Below are positions 1,922-50,874 of a stretch of 64,000 bases of DNA, piece by piece (the stretch's first letter is position 1; each line of letters starts with the position of its first letter). The translations under genes were made by a program, and so were the position numbers. Below the pieces are notes generated by a model that did not search any database, had not been told where the DNA came from, and saw only the letters and a list, made by a program, of their open reading frames with translations. This DNA comes from Bacteriovoracia bacterium (GTDB taxonomy: Bacteria; Bdellovibrionota; Bacteriovoracia; Bacteriovoracales; Bacteriovoracaceae), in assembly GCA_030431635.1 (NCBI GenBank), contig JAUIIL010000002.1, forward strand, positions 248,001 to 312,000, written 5' to 3'.

Positions 1922-3567
1922 TAGTTTTTAAATAATTGAGAAAGGTTATTTGTATTTAACTCAACCGCAAGGTTTTCTTTAATTAGGTTATTGATTGTAT
2001 AAGATTGAAAAAGAACTTCGATGTCAGTGATAAGAAATGATGGGGTTAATAGTGAGTAGTTCTCTAAGTGATTAAAAAATTGTGTCAATTGAACTTTTCT
2101 TGAGAATAAATGTTCCAAAAACGTTGATATTCTTAATTTATCAAAGCAACGAGGGATTTCTCTTAAAAGATAATTTTTCTCGTTAATAGGGTCTAGTACA
2201 AAACCAAAGGCAGCAAGTTCTTTTAAGTAAGATGGTTCGATCTTCCAGTTTGTTTTAATAGGAATACTAATAAGAAGAGGAGTCGTTCTTTCTTCACTTT
2301 CTTCTTTTAAATTTTGTTCAAAAAGTGAACGTAAAATTTTAGGAAGAGAGATGAGGGTATAGGTGCTATTTGTTTGAACAAGGGCGTAGTCTTGATTGAT
2401 TTTTTTGATCGTACTCTCTTTATCACTTGCGTAAGATTCACTTAGTTCAAGAGAGTAATTAATAGAAGGCTTGAGATCTTTTGCTTGTTCGAGGGGGGGG
2501 AGAAAATTTTCTTGATTATAAGAGTGGGGTTGTGTGCTTAGTGGTAAATTATTTTTCTCATTTTGCTTTGAAGGAATGAGCTCTTTAACGACGGAGCGAA
2601 GAAGCGCTAATATTTCAGAGGTTTGATTGAATTTCACCTGAGTTTTGTGAGGATGGATATTGACATCAATCGCTGAAGGGTGTGCTGTAATAAAAATCAG
2701 AGAGTGCCCACTGAGACCTGGCCCCCAAATATCGTTAGATAAGTTTTGAAGAATGGCCTGAATCTGTTTGTCATAAATAGGTCTATTATTCACGAATACA
2801 TACTGAAGTTTACTTTTTCCTTTTAAAGCTTTTGAGCTAATATAAGCCGTTACTGAGTAGTTATCGTAATTTTGAGTTTTAGAGAGCCATTGAAAGTGTT
2901 GGCCTTGATTAATTATATCAGAAGCTCTTTGTTCTCTTTTTTCTCTTTTAGGAAATAAGAGTTTATCGTTTTCATCCCACTTAATATGAAATTCAATTTG
3001 TGGATTTGCGACTAAGTAAGAATGAATCACTTTTGTGAGATAGTTTTTCTCACTTCTTTGAGAGTTCATGAATTTAAGTCTGGCGGGGGTGTTGAAAAAA
3101 AGCTCTTTAATATATATTTCTGTGCCTGAAGGAGCAGTGTCGGTTAATTCGACATGGGATATAATTAATGGTCCTTCAGATTGAATACGGCTCCCTTTGC
3201 CTGACTTCACATAACTTTGGCATGTCATTTTAGAAACACTGGCCAAAGAAGCCAGAGCTTCTCCTCTAAAACCGAATGTTGATAAAGAGTAGATATCATC
3301 AAATTGATTGAGTTTTGAGGTTGCATGCCTACAAAAGGCAAGAGGGAGCTCGTTATGTTCGATTCCATGCCCGTTATCTTTAACAACGATAAGATCAAGT
3401 CCATTGTTAAGGAGAGTTATTTCAATTTTAGTACTACCGGCATCAATAGAGTTCTCTATGAGTTCTTTAATAATGTGTGCAGGTCTTTCTACAACTTCCC
3501 CAGCTTTTATCTGATCGATAACATGTTCAGGCAAAAGCTGAATTTTTTGATAAGATTGAATTTGCAT
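1921..3567 (-). CDS. mutL: DNA mismatch repair protein MutL
   Basis: MutL is the ATP-dependent coordinator of mismatch repair, linking MutS to strand incision. The N-terminal GHKL ATPase has its boxes: ELIENSIDAG (35-44), DNGHGI, TSKL and TFGFRGEALASL, and the transducer domain ends with DVNIHPHKTQVKF. At 548 residues it is shorter than typical homologues of around 600. In the C-terminal domain I find neither the DQHAxxExxxxE endonuclease motif nor the Cys/His motif of metal-dependent MutL nucleases, so it may be a non-nicking MutL. The ATG at 3567 follows an AGGA element and lies five bases after the stop of the GGDEF gene, so the genes are probably co-transcribed. Confidence 0.96.
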   Translation of the reverse strand: MQIQSYQKIQLLPEHVIDQIKAGEVVERPAHIIKELIENSIDAGSTKIEITLLNNGLDLIVVKDNGHGIEHNELPLAFCRHATSKLNQFDDIYSLSTFGFRGEALASLASVSKMTCQSYVKSGKGSRIQSEGPLIISHVELTDTAPSGTEIYIKELFFNTPARLKFMNSQRSEKNYLTKVIHSYLVANPQIEFHIKWDENDKLLFPKREKREQRASDIINQGQHFQWLSKTQNYDNYSVTAYISSKALKGKSKLQYVFVNNRPIYDKQIQAILQNLSNDIWGPGLSGHSLIFITAHPSAIDVNIHPHKTQVKFNQTSEILALLRSVVKELIPSKQNEKNNLPLSTQPHSYNQENFLPPLEQAKDLKPSINYSLELSESYASDKESTIKKINQDYALVQTNSTYTLISLPKILRSLFEQNLKEESEERTTPLLISIPIKTNWKIEPSYLKELAAFGFVLDPINEKNYLLREIPRCFDKLRISTFLEHLFSRKVQLTQFFNHLENYSLLTPSFLITDIEVLFQSYTINNLIKENLAVELNTNNLSQLFKN

Positions 3568-45933: not shown

Positions 45934-47277
45934 TTGAATAAGTACTTAATTTTGTTATTTTTGCTTATCCTTCCTATTTATGGGCAGGTGAGGAGCTCAG
46001 CTGAGAAGGTAATTGCTTTTCATTTATCTCAAGTGAGGCGTTCAAACTCTAACTCACACCGAAATCAATATGAAATTCTTAACGAAATAACCAGTGAGCT
46101 TTTTGAACGTGGTTTTCTTTGTCCAAAGAGAACAATGGTTTCTACTGATTGTTTCAGAGAAGATTTTCTTCGAAGTATGAGAAAAGCTCGTCGCAAAAAA
46201 ATGATTGATAAGGTAACGTTTCTCTCCTTGAAACAACTTGTGTTGAGGGCCACATTTGAAGGTATTCTTGTTATTCCTGAGATATCAAGAGTAAACGCTC
46301 TTCAAGATACTCTGGGGCCATTAAGTACATACTTAAAAAACAAAAATGAATTTGATAGCAAAAAAATAGATGCACAAAAACACGAAGAGATATTAAAGAG
46401 ATTAAACAAACTTTACAAAAGAAAAAAAGCTCTTCTTGGAAAACTTTCTGTCAGAGAATATATCTTATTAAGTTTTAATAGAGCTCAGATGAGCGAGCTT
46501 TTTTCGATAGTCAATAAAGCAATCAACGGATACCAAATAGGGTTATCAAATGCCTGTACTTTTTTTACTCAGGATTTTGATAGAAAAGCATTAAACTTAA
46601 AACTCAAAGAAAAAGAAAAACTTCTTGATATCAAGCTGAATCTCTTTGAACTTGACCCAGCTCTAAGGGAAAAACTCAAAGAGGAGATTTATCAACTCAG
46701 AGATGAAATTAAAGCAATTAGAGAAGACATTCAAAATTCGGACTTAATAGGACAACTTGAATCACTGAAAGCTGAAAAGATGAAACTGAAGTTTGATTAT
46801 ATAGAAACGAGACTGCCAAAATATCAAAAAGAAATTGAACTTTTGAGTCTAGAGCAAAAAGTTTTAGAAGAGAGGATTGAAAGTGAAACATACTCCTTTG
46901 AAATGGATCCTGTGTCTTGTTACAGATTGATTGTCAATAAACTGGAGCAGGATCTCTCTTTGTTGCCAGTTAATAAACCCGAGACTTTTTTCAATAAACA
47001 AGTCAGTTTGGGAGATGCTGTGCTCGCTTTTTATCTCTATGGAAGCATTGACCCAGAAGGAATTGAGGGTATTATCAACCTTGAAGAGTTTCAAGAAAAC
47101 CACCAAGGTTTTCTCAAAAATGCTCAAGGAATCGTCTTAAGCTTATCTCGTATTTTCTTAGTAAGTAACCCGGCAACATCACCTTACGCCATTTTAGGGT
47201 TTATTCTTTATGACTCTTTAAAACAGAAAAGGAGGTATGAAAATGAAGAAAGTCGTCGTTCTCATTTGGTTCATTAG
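45934..47277 (+). CDS. Exported coiled-coil protein
   Basis: A 447-residue protein with a signal peptide (NKYLILLFLLILPIYG) and long charged helices, especially about 220-330, which read as coiled coil. Two short hydrophobic stretches occur near the C-terminus, around 340-360 and 405-430. No domain recognised. The start is TTG at 45934, with GAGGAA upstream. The last 35 bases overlap the metallopeptidase gene, whose ribosome site lies inside this gene, so the two products are likely made together and may work together. Confidence 0.7.
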   Translation: MNKYLILLFLLILPIYGQVRSSAEKVIAFHLSQVRRSNSNSHRNQYEILNEITSELFERGFLCPKRTMVSTDCFREDFLRSMRKARRKKMIDKVTFLSLKQLVLRATFEGILVIPEISRVNALQDTLGPLSTYLKNKNEFDSKKIDAQKHEEILKRLNKLYKRKKALLGKLSVREYILLSFNRAQMSELFSIVNKAINGYQIGLSNACTFFTQDFDRKALNLKLKEKEKLLDIKLNLFELDPALREKLKEEIYQLRDEIKAIREDIQNSDLIGQLESLKAEKMKLKFDYIETRLPKYQKEIELLSLEQKVLEERIESETYSFEMDPVSCYRLIVNKLEQDLSLLPVNKPETFFNKQVSLGDAVLAFYLYGSIDPEGIEGIINLEEFQENHQGFLKNAQGIVLSLSRIFLVSNPATSPYAILGFILYDSLKQKRRYENEESRRSHLVH

Positions 47278-48553
47278 CTCCTTTTCAACTTCGCTCGTCG
47301 CTCAGACGTTTTTTACAAAGGAATTTGATGTTAACTTTAGAGAGACAAAAAATTATAGTGAAAAAGGGCAGGTTGTTTATAAGAAGCCTAAAGCTTTGGT
47401 GAAGAGAAAAGTCATTCTTGAAAACTTGATTTCGGAAAATAGTTTTGATGGAGAGTATTTTAAAATAGTAGAGAGTGACTCAAATGATGCTATCTCATTT
47501 AATCATTCAGATAAGAAACTACTCTTTAAAGCAGCAACGACTTATTATTATTTGAGTAAAACAAGAGAGAGGTTTTTGGAAATTTTCCCTCATTTCGCTG
47601 GTGGAAAACAAAAAACAGTGGTGAGAATAGAAATGAGTAAAAGGTTTTCACCAAGAACTCATTTCGACGAGAGAACTCATATTTTTAATGACGCCAGAAC
47701 AGTTCCTGCTAGTTTATTTCAACAACAAAAAGAAATAGATCCTTGTCGTCTCTTCAAGCAAGAGGATTGCTCTATTCAAACTATTTTACCTTGGAATGAA
47801 GAGATTTGGTTTTATCGTCCCCGACTGGAAAAGGATGAATCAACATACGAACAAGTGGCCACTCAAATTAACTCAAGAGAAATGAAAAATATCCTTCTAG
47901 GGAATTTTATTTATGCAGATCTCTCACAAGCTTTGTATGAAATTTCTAATGGAGGAGTTGTTGATGATTTATTTTTTGAGTATCACTTAGTTTCTTTGGG
48001 TCTCTCTCTTGGAGTTTCTGAAATTATTCCTCAAATACTGGAACTTTCTTCAAAAATATTTAAAAATCGAACCTATTTAGACACCGCCCTAATCCCCGAA
48101 GTGATTTCCCATGAGTATATGCATATTTTACTTAAGAATTTTCTTCCTTTAGATAACTCCAATCACATTAATGAAGGGTTCGCGAACTTTTTCACTTATA
48201 GGGTGAATCTTATTCCTTCCATTGGAAAAAAATCACGAAAATACCACAAAGGTCTTTTGTCCAAACAGCTTCACTCTAAAGAAAAGTATAGACTCTCTCT
48301 TGAAACCGTTCCCGATCTTGCTCATGGCAGTTTTGTTTTTTCCTTATTAGGGGATCTGCAAGAAGCTTTAGGAGAATATGCTGACGCTGTCTTTTTGAGC
48401 TCTTTGCGCTATTTAGATGGCGCCAGTTTCCTTAATAAAGGACTGGTCATGGCCATCAATAAAGGAATTGATGATGTATCCAAAGGAAGACCTGAGCTCA
48501 ACTTTTCACTAAAAAACAAATGTTTAGCTGTTTTCTTGAAGAGAGGTCTTTAG
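47243..48553 (+). CDS. Secreted gluzincin metallopeptidase
   Basis: A 436-residue protein with a signal peptide (MKKVVVLIWFISSFSTSLVA). The zinc site is HEYMH (His290, Glu291, His294), followed 17 residues later by Glu311 in NEGFANFF, the gluzincin pattern. The N-terminal 280 residues do not match a family I recognise, nor does the C-terminal part. ATG 47243 is preferred over 47237 because a perfect GGAGGT ends at 47236, giving six bases of spacing. It is translationally coupled to the coiled-coil gene before it. Likely a periplasmic or extracellular peptidase; substrate unknown. Confidence 0.82.
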   Translation: MKKVVVLIWFISSFSTSLVAQTFFTKEFDVNFRETKNYSEKGQVVYKKPKALVKRKVILENLISENSFDGEYFKIVESDSNDAISFNHSDKKLLFKAATTYYYLSKTRERFLEIFPHFAGGKQKTVVRIEMSKRFSPRTHFDERTHIFNDARTVPASLFQQQKEIDPCRLFKQEDCSIQTILPWNEEIWFYRPRLEKDESTYEQVATQINSREMKNILLGNFIYADLSQALYEISNGGVVDDLFFEYHLVSLGLSLGVSEIIPQILELSSKIFKNRTYLDTALIPEVISHEYMHILLKNFLPLDNSNHINEGFANFFTYRVNLIPSIGKKSRKYHKGLLSKQLHSKEKYRLSLETVPDLAHGSFVFSLLGDLQEALGEYADAVFLSSLRYLDGASFLNKGLVMAINKGIDDVSKGRPELNFSLKNKCLAVFLKRGL

Positions 48554-48606: not shown

Positions 48607-48643
48607 CTGCGGACATTTAGATTATCGAAATCACGTTAAACTC

Positions 48644-48668
48644 GCTCCTAGCGAAAGAGACTAGGGGC
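48644..48668 (+). promoter_or_regulatory. Leader hairpin upstream of rpsF-rpsR
   Basis: GCTCCTAG (48644-48651) and CTAGGGGC (48661-48668) form an eight-base stem, one pair being G-U, around a nine-base loop, 22 bases before the start codon and its AGGAGG site. rpsF leaders in several bacteria carry an RNA motif bound by S6:S18 for autoregulation; I cannot show that this hairpin is that motif. Confidence 0.4.
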
Positions 48669-48690
48669 TTAATATAACCCAGGAGGTAAT

Positions 48691-49299
48691 ATGATTTACG
48701 AGACAGCAGTCGTCGTGCGTGCTGAGGCGGGAGAGGAAGAACTCGCCAAAATCAAAGCAAGTGTTAAAGATGTCATTTCATCATCAAAAGCCGAGGTCAT
48801 TATTGAAGATGACTGGGGTGTAAAGTCTTTTGCTCAACCAACAGAGAAAGGCGTTCAAAAAGGTCGCTATGTATACTTTATGTATAAAGCGGAAACTGGA
48901 GAACTAAACTCAGAGTTAGAGCGAAGATACAGAATCTCTGAAGACGTCATTAAGTTTATTGTTCTTAAGCTTGGAAGAGATGAAGAGCTTAAAAAAATCC
49001 AAGAAAACTACAGAAATCCAAACAGCAAATCTGCTGATGAAGGAAAAAGTCGTTTGGATTTAGAGAAAGAGAAAAAACTTTTTGCTAAAAGAAAGTCTTG
49101 TTGGTTTTCGGCCAAAAAAGTTGAACCTGATTGGAAAGATCCAAGCACATACAGCTGGCTTGTAAACGAGTTTGGAAAAATTTCTCCAGCAAGAATTACT
49201 GGATTAAGGCCTAAGTATCAACGTTCTGCTACAACTGCTGTAAAGAGAGCGAGAGCGATGGGGCTTATCAGTTATATGTCGGGCAGAACAATAAGATAG
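48691..49299 (+). CDS. rpsF-rpsR: Fused ribosomal proteins bS6-bS18
   Basis: One uninterrupted 202-codon frame encodes both proteins. Residues 1-97 match bS6 (IYETAVVVR, EDDWGVKSFAQP, KGRYVYFMYKA, RRYRISEDVIKFIVLKL). Residues 98-130 are a charged linker. Residues 131-202 match bS18 (FAKRKSCWFSAKKV, GKISPARITGLRPKYQR, AVKRARAMGLISYM). bS6 and bS18 are neighbours on the 30S platform and are normally separate proteins from one operon. No second rpsR lies before rplI. The ATG has a full AGGAGG site and no internal stop, frameshift or obvious second start occurs at the junction. The DUF2232, rplI and dnaB genes follow in the usual order. Confidence 0.93.
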   Translation: MIYETAVVVRAEAGEEELAKIKASVKDVISSSKAEVIIEDDWGVKSFAQPTEKGVQKGRYVYFMYKAETGELNSELERRYRISEDVIKFIVLKLGRDEELKKIQENYRNPNSKSADEGKSRLDLEKEKKLFAKRKSCWFSAKKVEPDWKDPSTYSWLVNEFGKISPARITGLRPKYQRSATTAVKRARAMGLISYMSGRTIR

Positions 49300-49309
49300 G
49301 TTTGGAGTA

Positions 49310-50296
49310 ATGGATAAAAAAGAGAACTCTAAACAATTTCAAGCCCCTTCTGGAAGACTTGTTCTTCTTGGTCTTTCTTCTTTGATTTTAAGTATGAGCT
49401 TTATTATGGCAGTCTTTGCTCCATTTCCATTGTCTCTTGCTTCAGTCATCTATGGAAGATTTGTTGGTTATTTACTTGGAGTTGCTTGTTTAGGAGTTAT
49501 TCTCTTTATTTCCTTAACTATTTTTAAACAGACAACAATGTTTTTTTTCTACGGAGTAGCTTTTCTTCTTTCAATTTTTATTACAGAAATTGTTTTAAGA
49601 GGAATGACTCCAATGAAAGGGATTGTTCGCTTTGGGGTTGGTTTTTTCGTTTTTCTTATTTTAGGTGGAGGGATTATTGTTCAATCTTCTAATTTAAGTT
49701 TGAAAGAAATGGTGATTGCTGAAGTGAAAAAAAGCACTACAGAGCTGAATAAGCAGAAAGAGGAAATTTTAAACCAAAACGATAGTGATGAAGCTGTCAG
49801 GATTTTGAATCTTTTGTCTCAACCAGAAGAGTTAGCGCAAGAGATCATTAAAACACTTCCAAGCTACTTCTTTATCAGCATCTTTTTTGTTTTGTGGGCA
49901 AATTTATACCTTGTCCTAAAATCAAGGAGAATGCTTTTTATTACTCGTCGTTATAAGTTTAATGAAGAAAACCTTTTGCGTTTTAAGATGCCTGAACAGG
50001 CCATTTGGTTTTTGGTTTTAGGTCTTTTCCTCTCAATGTGGGGAAGTGAGCTATTTCAAACTGAGTGGGCCAGTGACATTGGTCTAACCGTTGTAAAGTG
50101 TTTAGGGCTTTTTTATTTTTTTCAAGGGTTTGGAATCTATATCCAGTTTTTGGATCATATTAGATTAACAGGACTCTTAAGAACATTTCTTGTTATGTTT
50201 ACTGTTCTTATTGCACCTTGGCTATTGGCCCTAGGTGGTGTTTTTGATATGTGGATTGATTTTAAAAAGTTTTTTTCGAAAAATAAAAATGATTAA
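49310..50296 (+). CDS. DUF2232-like membrane protein
   Basis: A 328-residue inner-membrane protein with about eight hydrophobic segments: five in the first 130 residues, and three after a charged region (about 140-180), near 185-200, 225-245 and 285-310. DUF2232 (YybS-like) proteins are commonly encoded between rpsR and rplI, which is exactly its position here. Function unknown. It starts ten bases after the fused ribosomal gene and ends 11 bases before rplI. Confidence 0.8.
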   Translation: MDKKENSKQFQAPSGRLVLLGLSSLILSMSFIMAVFAPFPLSLASVIYGRFVGYLLGVACLGVILFISLTIFKQTTMFFFYGVAFLLSIFITEIVLRGMTPMKGIVRFGVGFFVFLILGGGIIVQSSNLSLKEMVIAEVKKSTTELNKQKEEILNQNDSDEAVRILNLLSQPEELAQEIIKTLPSYFFISIFFVLWANLYLVLKSRRMLFITRRYKFNEENLLRFKMPEQAIWFLVLGLFLSMWGSELFQTEWASDIGLTVVKCLGLFYFFQGFGIYIQFLDHIRLTGLLRTFLVMFTVLIAPWLLALGGVFDMWIDFKKFFSKNKND

Positions 50297-50307: not shown

Positions 50308-50874
50308 ATGAAAGTCATATTGACTGAATCTGTAAAATCTTTAGGAAGTGTTGGCGAAGTTGTTAACGTTTCTGAAGGCTATGCAAGGAATTTTTTGATT
50401 CCTAGAAATTATGCGATACTAGCTGATGCTGGTAACAAAAAAATCTTAGAAAACCATGAAAAGAAACTGGCAAAGAAAGTCCTGGCTGCCAAAGATGAAG
50501 CCAAAGCTATCAAAGCCAAAATAGATGGTTTAACTTTAGAATTCTCTAAAAGAGTTGCTGGAACGGGGAAAATTTTTGGAACTGTTTCTCCAAGTGACTT
50601 GGCCAAAGAATTGGAGAAAAGAGAAGTCTCTGTTGAAAGAAGAATGATCGTTATTCCGACGCCTATTAAAACATTAGGAACTTTTAATGTTTCAGTGAAA
50701 TTGTTTGAAGGAATTGAGTCTAGTTTCAAAGTAAAAGTTGAACTTGATCAAGACCAAGCTGAAGAGATGAAAAAAGCTCAGGCGAAAGCTGAAGCTAGAA
50801 AAAAAGCCGCTCCTAAAGAGGAAGAGGCAGCTCAAGAGAGCGTTGAAGAAAGTGTAGAAGAGACAGAAGCTTAA
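50308..50874 (+). CDS. rplI: 50S ribosomal protein bL9
   Basis: bL9 binds 23S rRNA near the L1 stalk. The N-terminal domain is unmistakable (MKVILTESVKSLGSVGEVV, then GYARNFLIPRNYA), followed by the long connecting helix and a C-terminal domain (about 75-150). A 35-residue Ala/Glu-rich acidic tail (about 150-188) makes it longer than the usual 150 residues. AAAGGAG precedes the ATG. Confidence 0.96.
   Translation: MKVILTESVKSLGSVGEVVNVSEGYARNFLIPRNYAILADAGNKKILENHEKKLAKKVLAAKDEAKAIKAKIDGLTLEFSKRVAGTGKIFGTVSPSDLAKELEKREVSVERRMIVIPTPIKTLGTFNVSVKLFEGIESSFKVKVELDQDQAEEMKKAQAKAEARKKAAPKEEEAAQESVEESVEETEA

Follow-up and report, generated by a model that had tools for sequence, protein, structure and literature searches.

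Nearly all members of Bacteriovoracia, a bacterial class that includes known predators, carry the ribosomal proteins S6 (bS6) and S18 (bS18) joined in one gene. The fusion itself is as good as certain, and it is class-wide and old. To our knowledge, in the bacteria studied so far S6 and S18 are made as two proteins, which bind one another ahead of rRNA binding. The best explanation of the data, held with high confidence, is that the gene product is a covalently tethered bS6:bS18 heterodimer that acts as one assembly unit and has probably kept the ability to repress its own mRNA. A fuller account appears reasonably probable, namely that in nearly the whole class the 30S platform is built from S6 and S18 covalently joined in the ribosome, that the contact between the two was rewired first and the zinc site of S18 dropped after, and that the chain is a one-molecule repressor of its own mRNA.

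The gene lies in the window, that is, the whole stretch of DNA analysed (64,000 nucleotides), and its features are collected in Table 1. The S6 half of the translated frame is matched by Ribosomal_S6 (Pfam PF01250) at residues 3-93 (68.1 bits against a cut-off of 27, profile positions 2-90 of 90) and by the NCBIfam S6 profile TIGR00166 at residues 1-94 (43.9 vs 42.9 bits), and the S18 half by Ribosomal_S18 (Pfam PF01084) at residues 142-193 (61.3 bits against 21, profile positions 1-52 of 52) and by the NCBIfam S18 profile TIGR00165 at residues 131-197 (62.2 vs 38.75 bits). These profiles agree with the initial annotation of the window, which had described a natural union of bS6, a charged linker and bS18 in one open frame. 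The bS6 part is not free-standing, as it lacks a C-terminus of its own and the frame runs on into S18. Across the source genome (19 contigs, 100% complete, 1% contamination) S18 and S6 each gave a single match, and both fall in the fused frame, so that the search for a separate rpsR, proposed with the annotation, returned none and the fused chain is the sole source of both proteins.

Table 1. Coordinates of the fused gene, its parts and its surroundings in the window
Feature	Position	Strand	Basis or remark
rpsF_leader-type RNA (predicted)	48641..48686	+	CUC 48641-48643, hairpin, AU-rich spacer, CC, AGGAGG 48681-48686
Leader hairpin arms	GCUCCUAG 48644-48651 / CUAGGGGC 48661-48668	+	
Shine-Dalgarno AGGAGG	48681-48686	+	four bases ahead of ATG
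Fused bS6-bS18 gene	48691-49299	+	single ATG-to-TAG frame, 202 aa, no internal stops
bS6 domain, residues 1-97	48691..48981	+	PF01250 and TIGR00166 over cut-off; AlphaFold part matches solved S6 chains
S6 Gln49 codon (E. coli Tyr48 position)	48835-48837		
Linker, residues 98-130	48982..49080	+	charged; low AlphaFold confidence
bS18 domain, residues 131-202	49081..49296	+	PF01084 and TIGR00165 over cut-off; alignment
S18 Trp148 codon (E. coli Tyr23 position)	49132-49134		
Stop codon TAG of the fused gene	49297..49299	+	
DUF2232 membrane protein, next gene downstream, before rplI	49310..50296	+	PF09991, 82 bits
rplI (bL9)	50308..50874	+	TIGR00158, 128.7 bits

The next genes downstream are those for the DUF2232 membrane protein, rplI and dnaB, and there is thus no separate rpsR before rplI, as had been read from the letters. 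A conserved gene of unknown function after rpsF-rpsR and before rplI has been reported mostly in Pseudomonadales (eLife, PMC9132574). Upstream, positions 45934-48553 of the window hold two long genes (447 and 438 aa) with no Pfam or NCBIfam match. Elsewhere in the source genome there are two bS21 genes (G000:C4:102374-102532 and G000:C5:185-346); two are also present in many class members, and one or none was found in others. Another genome of the class, G035, has two long rpoB matches (G035:C12:2030-3706 and G035:C22:149140-150822).

The distribution of the fusion was followed in 129 Bacteriovoracia genomes, Bacteriovorax and Halobacteriovorax included, a set that represents the family, the order and the class of the window alike. 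S18 was found in 118 of them, and in 110 of these it belongs to a single open S6-S18 frame of 203-252 aa; two further fused frames are interrupted by contig ends (G008 and G161). Separate rpsF and rpsR genes, each S18 with its own start, are present in five of the 118 (G001, G019, G024, G130 and G027), which fall in four genera. In the remaining one, G025, the S18 is of the fused type, but the linker is interrupted by a lone TAA after which no start codon follows; if real, this stop would break S18, which counts against the best explanation. For that gene (L068, G025:C61, about 2700-2703, reverse strand) the TAA could be a sequencing error, a fresh mutation or a site of readthrough. S18 is present in one copy per genome across the class, with no hidden second rpsR, and in a second, named genome collection 79 of 80 loci are fused, including those of Bacteriovorax sp. 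BSW11_IV and DB6_IX and a Halobacteriovorax marinus record. The profile searches over related genomes that had been suggested for the single genome therefore extend the fusion to nearly the whole class. Among the S18 frames listed from elsewhere in the phylum none exceeds 161 aa, and none of those is therefore fused.

The contact between the two proteins is altered in the class as a whole. In E. coli the S6:S18 interface includes Tyr23 and Lys24 of S18 and residues 44-49 of S6 (PMC4647458). S6 Tyr48 is replaced by Gln and S18 Tyr23 by Trp (E. coli numbering) in 53/53 class members examined, so that the Tyr/Tyr contact of E. coli stands against Gln/Trp in the fused class, while nine outgroup pairs have Tyr in S18 and Tyr (one Phe) in S6 at the same positions. 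Since the change is common to members with fused and with separate genes, the interface must have been altered before the genes were fused.

The zinc site of S18, on the other hand, separates the two groups. The members with separate genes have an S18 with the full set of zinc ligands, CxxC/CxxH, whereas the fused S18 has lost two or three of them, and the second and third cysteines were kept in none examined; the pattern CxxC + CxxH that marks a C+ (zinc) bS18 is thus absent from the fused proteins. The S18 of the window retains the first ligand (C137), a cysteine invariant in an alignment of 43, and has lost the other three. A tree of S6 and S18 places the fused forms and G025 in one clade (87/88), while the separate members form a grade at the base, a topology partly driven by the zinc columns themselves. 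A single origin of the fusion is preferred on these grounds, though it is not proven. In an independent tree of RpoB and RpoC the deep order is open, and the earliest lineage to branch off is a fused genus, G011 (SH-aLRT 87), the separate genera being nested inside; this placement would fit a later split or several fusions. The fusion would then be ancestral to the class and re-split in the four separate genera, or would have arisen independently in several lineages. Either course seems unlikely to us, because a single fused clade is not rejected by the rpoBC data (log-likelihood difference 18.5, p 0.19, in a test run on the set less G013 and G040, in neither of which S18 was found), because the separate members are basal in the S6 and S18 tree, even if the zinc columns help to cause that, and because the full CxxC/CxxH is found in all separate members examined and in no fused one, its re-gain after a split being improbable.

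In the genomes with separate genes, S6 ends shortly after an NYKxP-like motif, and S18 starts with a long charged extension that ends in a DKDRRMFxRKK-like motif. By comparison, the linker looks like the old S6 tail (KxYxxP), a variable spacer and the old N-terminal extension of S18. The simplest route to the fusion would be a stop lost in place: in the ancestor from which most Bacteriovoracia descend, rpsF would have lost its stop, together with the few letters that set it apart from the neighbouring rpsR, and the old tail, the gap and the old extension would have become a flexible linker.

The AlphaFold model built with the family alignment (mean pLDDT 81, pTM 0.75) has a well predicted S6 half, the S18 helices and a weak linker, with a pLDDT of 54-65 over most of residues 98-130. 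Its S6 part superposes on S6 of a 70S structure with a TM score of 0.94 (target-normalised), and the 60 matches listed from a sequence search of the Protein Data Bank are all annotated as S6 or S18 alone. The chain would fold as an S6 domain docked onto an S18 domain and, tethered in this way, would join the 16S platform as a single unit, its two parts in a fixed 1:1 ratio. A forced 1:1 stoichiometry had already been proposed, and equal synthesis of both parts does follow if the gene is translated as one piece.

The fused protein is likely to stay joined in the ribosome. One alternative on this point is that a protease cleaves a fused precursor within its flexible linker and leaves the ribosomes with an ordinary separate S6 and S18. 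The linker is indeed charged and of low confidence in the model, and the eukaryotic ubiquitin-ribosomal protein fusions (RPS27A and UBA52), in which a ribosomal protein is likewise made within a fusion, are cut post-translationally, even though their partner is not ribosomal. Cleavage nevertheless seems quite improbable, as the middle of the linker is highly variable in sequence and length (the first S18 Cys lies at position 133 to 152) and no common cleavage-like motif is visible by eye in the alignment; the conserved KxYxxP also occurs close to the C-terminus of S6 where S6 is a separate protein, and therefore predates the fusion. It is very unlikely that S18 is additionally made alone from a translation start inside the linker. 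In the window an in-frame TTG (codon 122) is preceded by GAAGGAAAAAGTCGT and has a 5-base Shine-Dalgarno match, and 12/48 linkers contain a start codon whose Shine-Dalgarno match is 4 or more, but codon shuffling leads one to expect 10.5, and in 23 of the 48 there is no in-frame ATG, GTG or TTG. Among the latter is that of the nearest relative of the window protein (69% identical). Conserved linker starts with a Shine-Dalgarno sequence would be expected if S18 started internally, and their lack of conservation speaks against it. A sequencing or assembly error that took out a stop, which the initial annotation had listed among the findings that would overturn its reading, had nothing found in its favour and is excluded by the recurrence of the fused frame in independent genomes, more than 110 of them (110/118 in the class sample, besides 79/80 named loci).

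The RNA ahead of the gene bears on its regulation. In E. coli, rpsF is repressed by the S6:S18 complex and by neither protein alone, the leader response is abolished when the two cytosines are mutated, and Lys60 and Arg63 of S18 touch the conserved cytosine pair in rRNA and in the leader (PMC4647458). A hairpin is present upstream of 43/48 fused genes in the order CU(C/U)G, hairpin, spacer (often AU-rich), CC and Shine-Dalgarno sequence, with the CC columns invariant or nearly so and with pairing of the stem maintained despite letter changes. The stems score 7.5 on average, whereas dinucleotide shuffles average 4.13, the highest of 100 shuffled-set means being 4.74. The hairpin, CC and Shine-Dalgarno sequence stand directly ahead of the S6 coding region, as in the rpsF_leader layout. 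Read by eye, the E. coli leader has the same order of elements (CCUUGC - GCCUCC/GGAGGC hairpin - AAUAAU - CCG - UAAGGAG), and so do outgroups of the same phylum. In Rfam, searched in a copy that may lack an rpsF leader family, no family matched the leader at this locus, and the search gave only a chance S15-leader match. In two of the separate-gene genera (L066 and L067, in G019 and G024) no recognisable rpsF leader hairpin was seen, unlike in fused relatives and outgroups.

With E. coli as a guide to the alignment, Lys24, Lys60 and Arg63 of S18 are invariant in 48/48 fused proteins. It had been suggested that fusion would alter autoregulation; since both the S6:S18-type leader and the S18 residues that bind RNA are kept, the regulation looks retained instead. 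The kept leader argues for continued repression of translation by the fused protein itself, acting as one molecule. Autoregulation by a single chain is a supported prediction: by analogy with E. coli, the fused protein would attach to the leader hairpin on the mRNA that encodes it and repress itself, one chain being the effector where E. coli uses a two-protein complex.

Two other proposed consequences fared less well. The fusion had been expected to block RimK, but no RimK-family protein over the cut-off was found in the source genome (best 92 vs 143 bits), and there is therefore perhaps nothing to block; a RimK-family protein is present in many fused relatives. As for RimI, whose action was also thought to be blocked, none over the cut-off was found here either (71 vs 86 bits), and matches over the cut-off occur in 3/43 class members vs 13/26 outside. 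RimI does not track the fusion, because separate-gene members are also without it, and a causal link is unsupported.

The closest known system is that of E. coli and B. subtilis, with separate bS6 and bS18 and an rpsF_leader, which shares with the fused locus the domains, the RNA-contact residues, the order of leader elements and the gene order rpsF, rpsR, rplI (PMC4647458). It differs in that the E. coli proteins are distinct, their genes lying on either side of priB, and that the leader responds to both together, whereas in the fused class there is one chain, which would be the leader's target if the leader acts at all. The bifunctional signalling protein/ribosomal protein L9 (NF011110, NCBIfam) is likewise a natural bacterial fusion of a ribosomal protein, but its partner is neither a ribosomal protein nor the ribosome contact of L9. 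An S18 without a zinc site is known as the C- (zinc-free) bS18 paralogue of Mycobacterium smegmatis (PMC9976891), which is a spare for zinc starvation, while the S18 of the fused class is the only copy and is joined to S6. A survey of ribosomal proteins from 2012 makes no mention of fusions (PMC3353972), and a search confined to open-access full texts brought up no paper that describes S6 fused to S18. The class-wide fusion is thus apparently undescribed, in line with the initial annotation, whose author knew of no described case.

Pipelines that expect one gene per marker may mis-call or drop S6 or S18 in Bacteriovoracia. If the reading given here is true, two ribosomal proteins have been joined by nature in this class at the place where they normally touch. 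Being class-wide, it offers a ready-made test of whether the S6:S18 dimer ever must come apart, of whether an equal supply of S6 and S18 is what the leader RNA controls, and of whether tethering can replace the zinc site of S18, with the genera that have separate genes as matched controls for their fused relatives.
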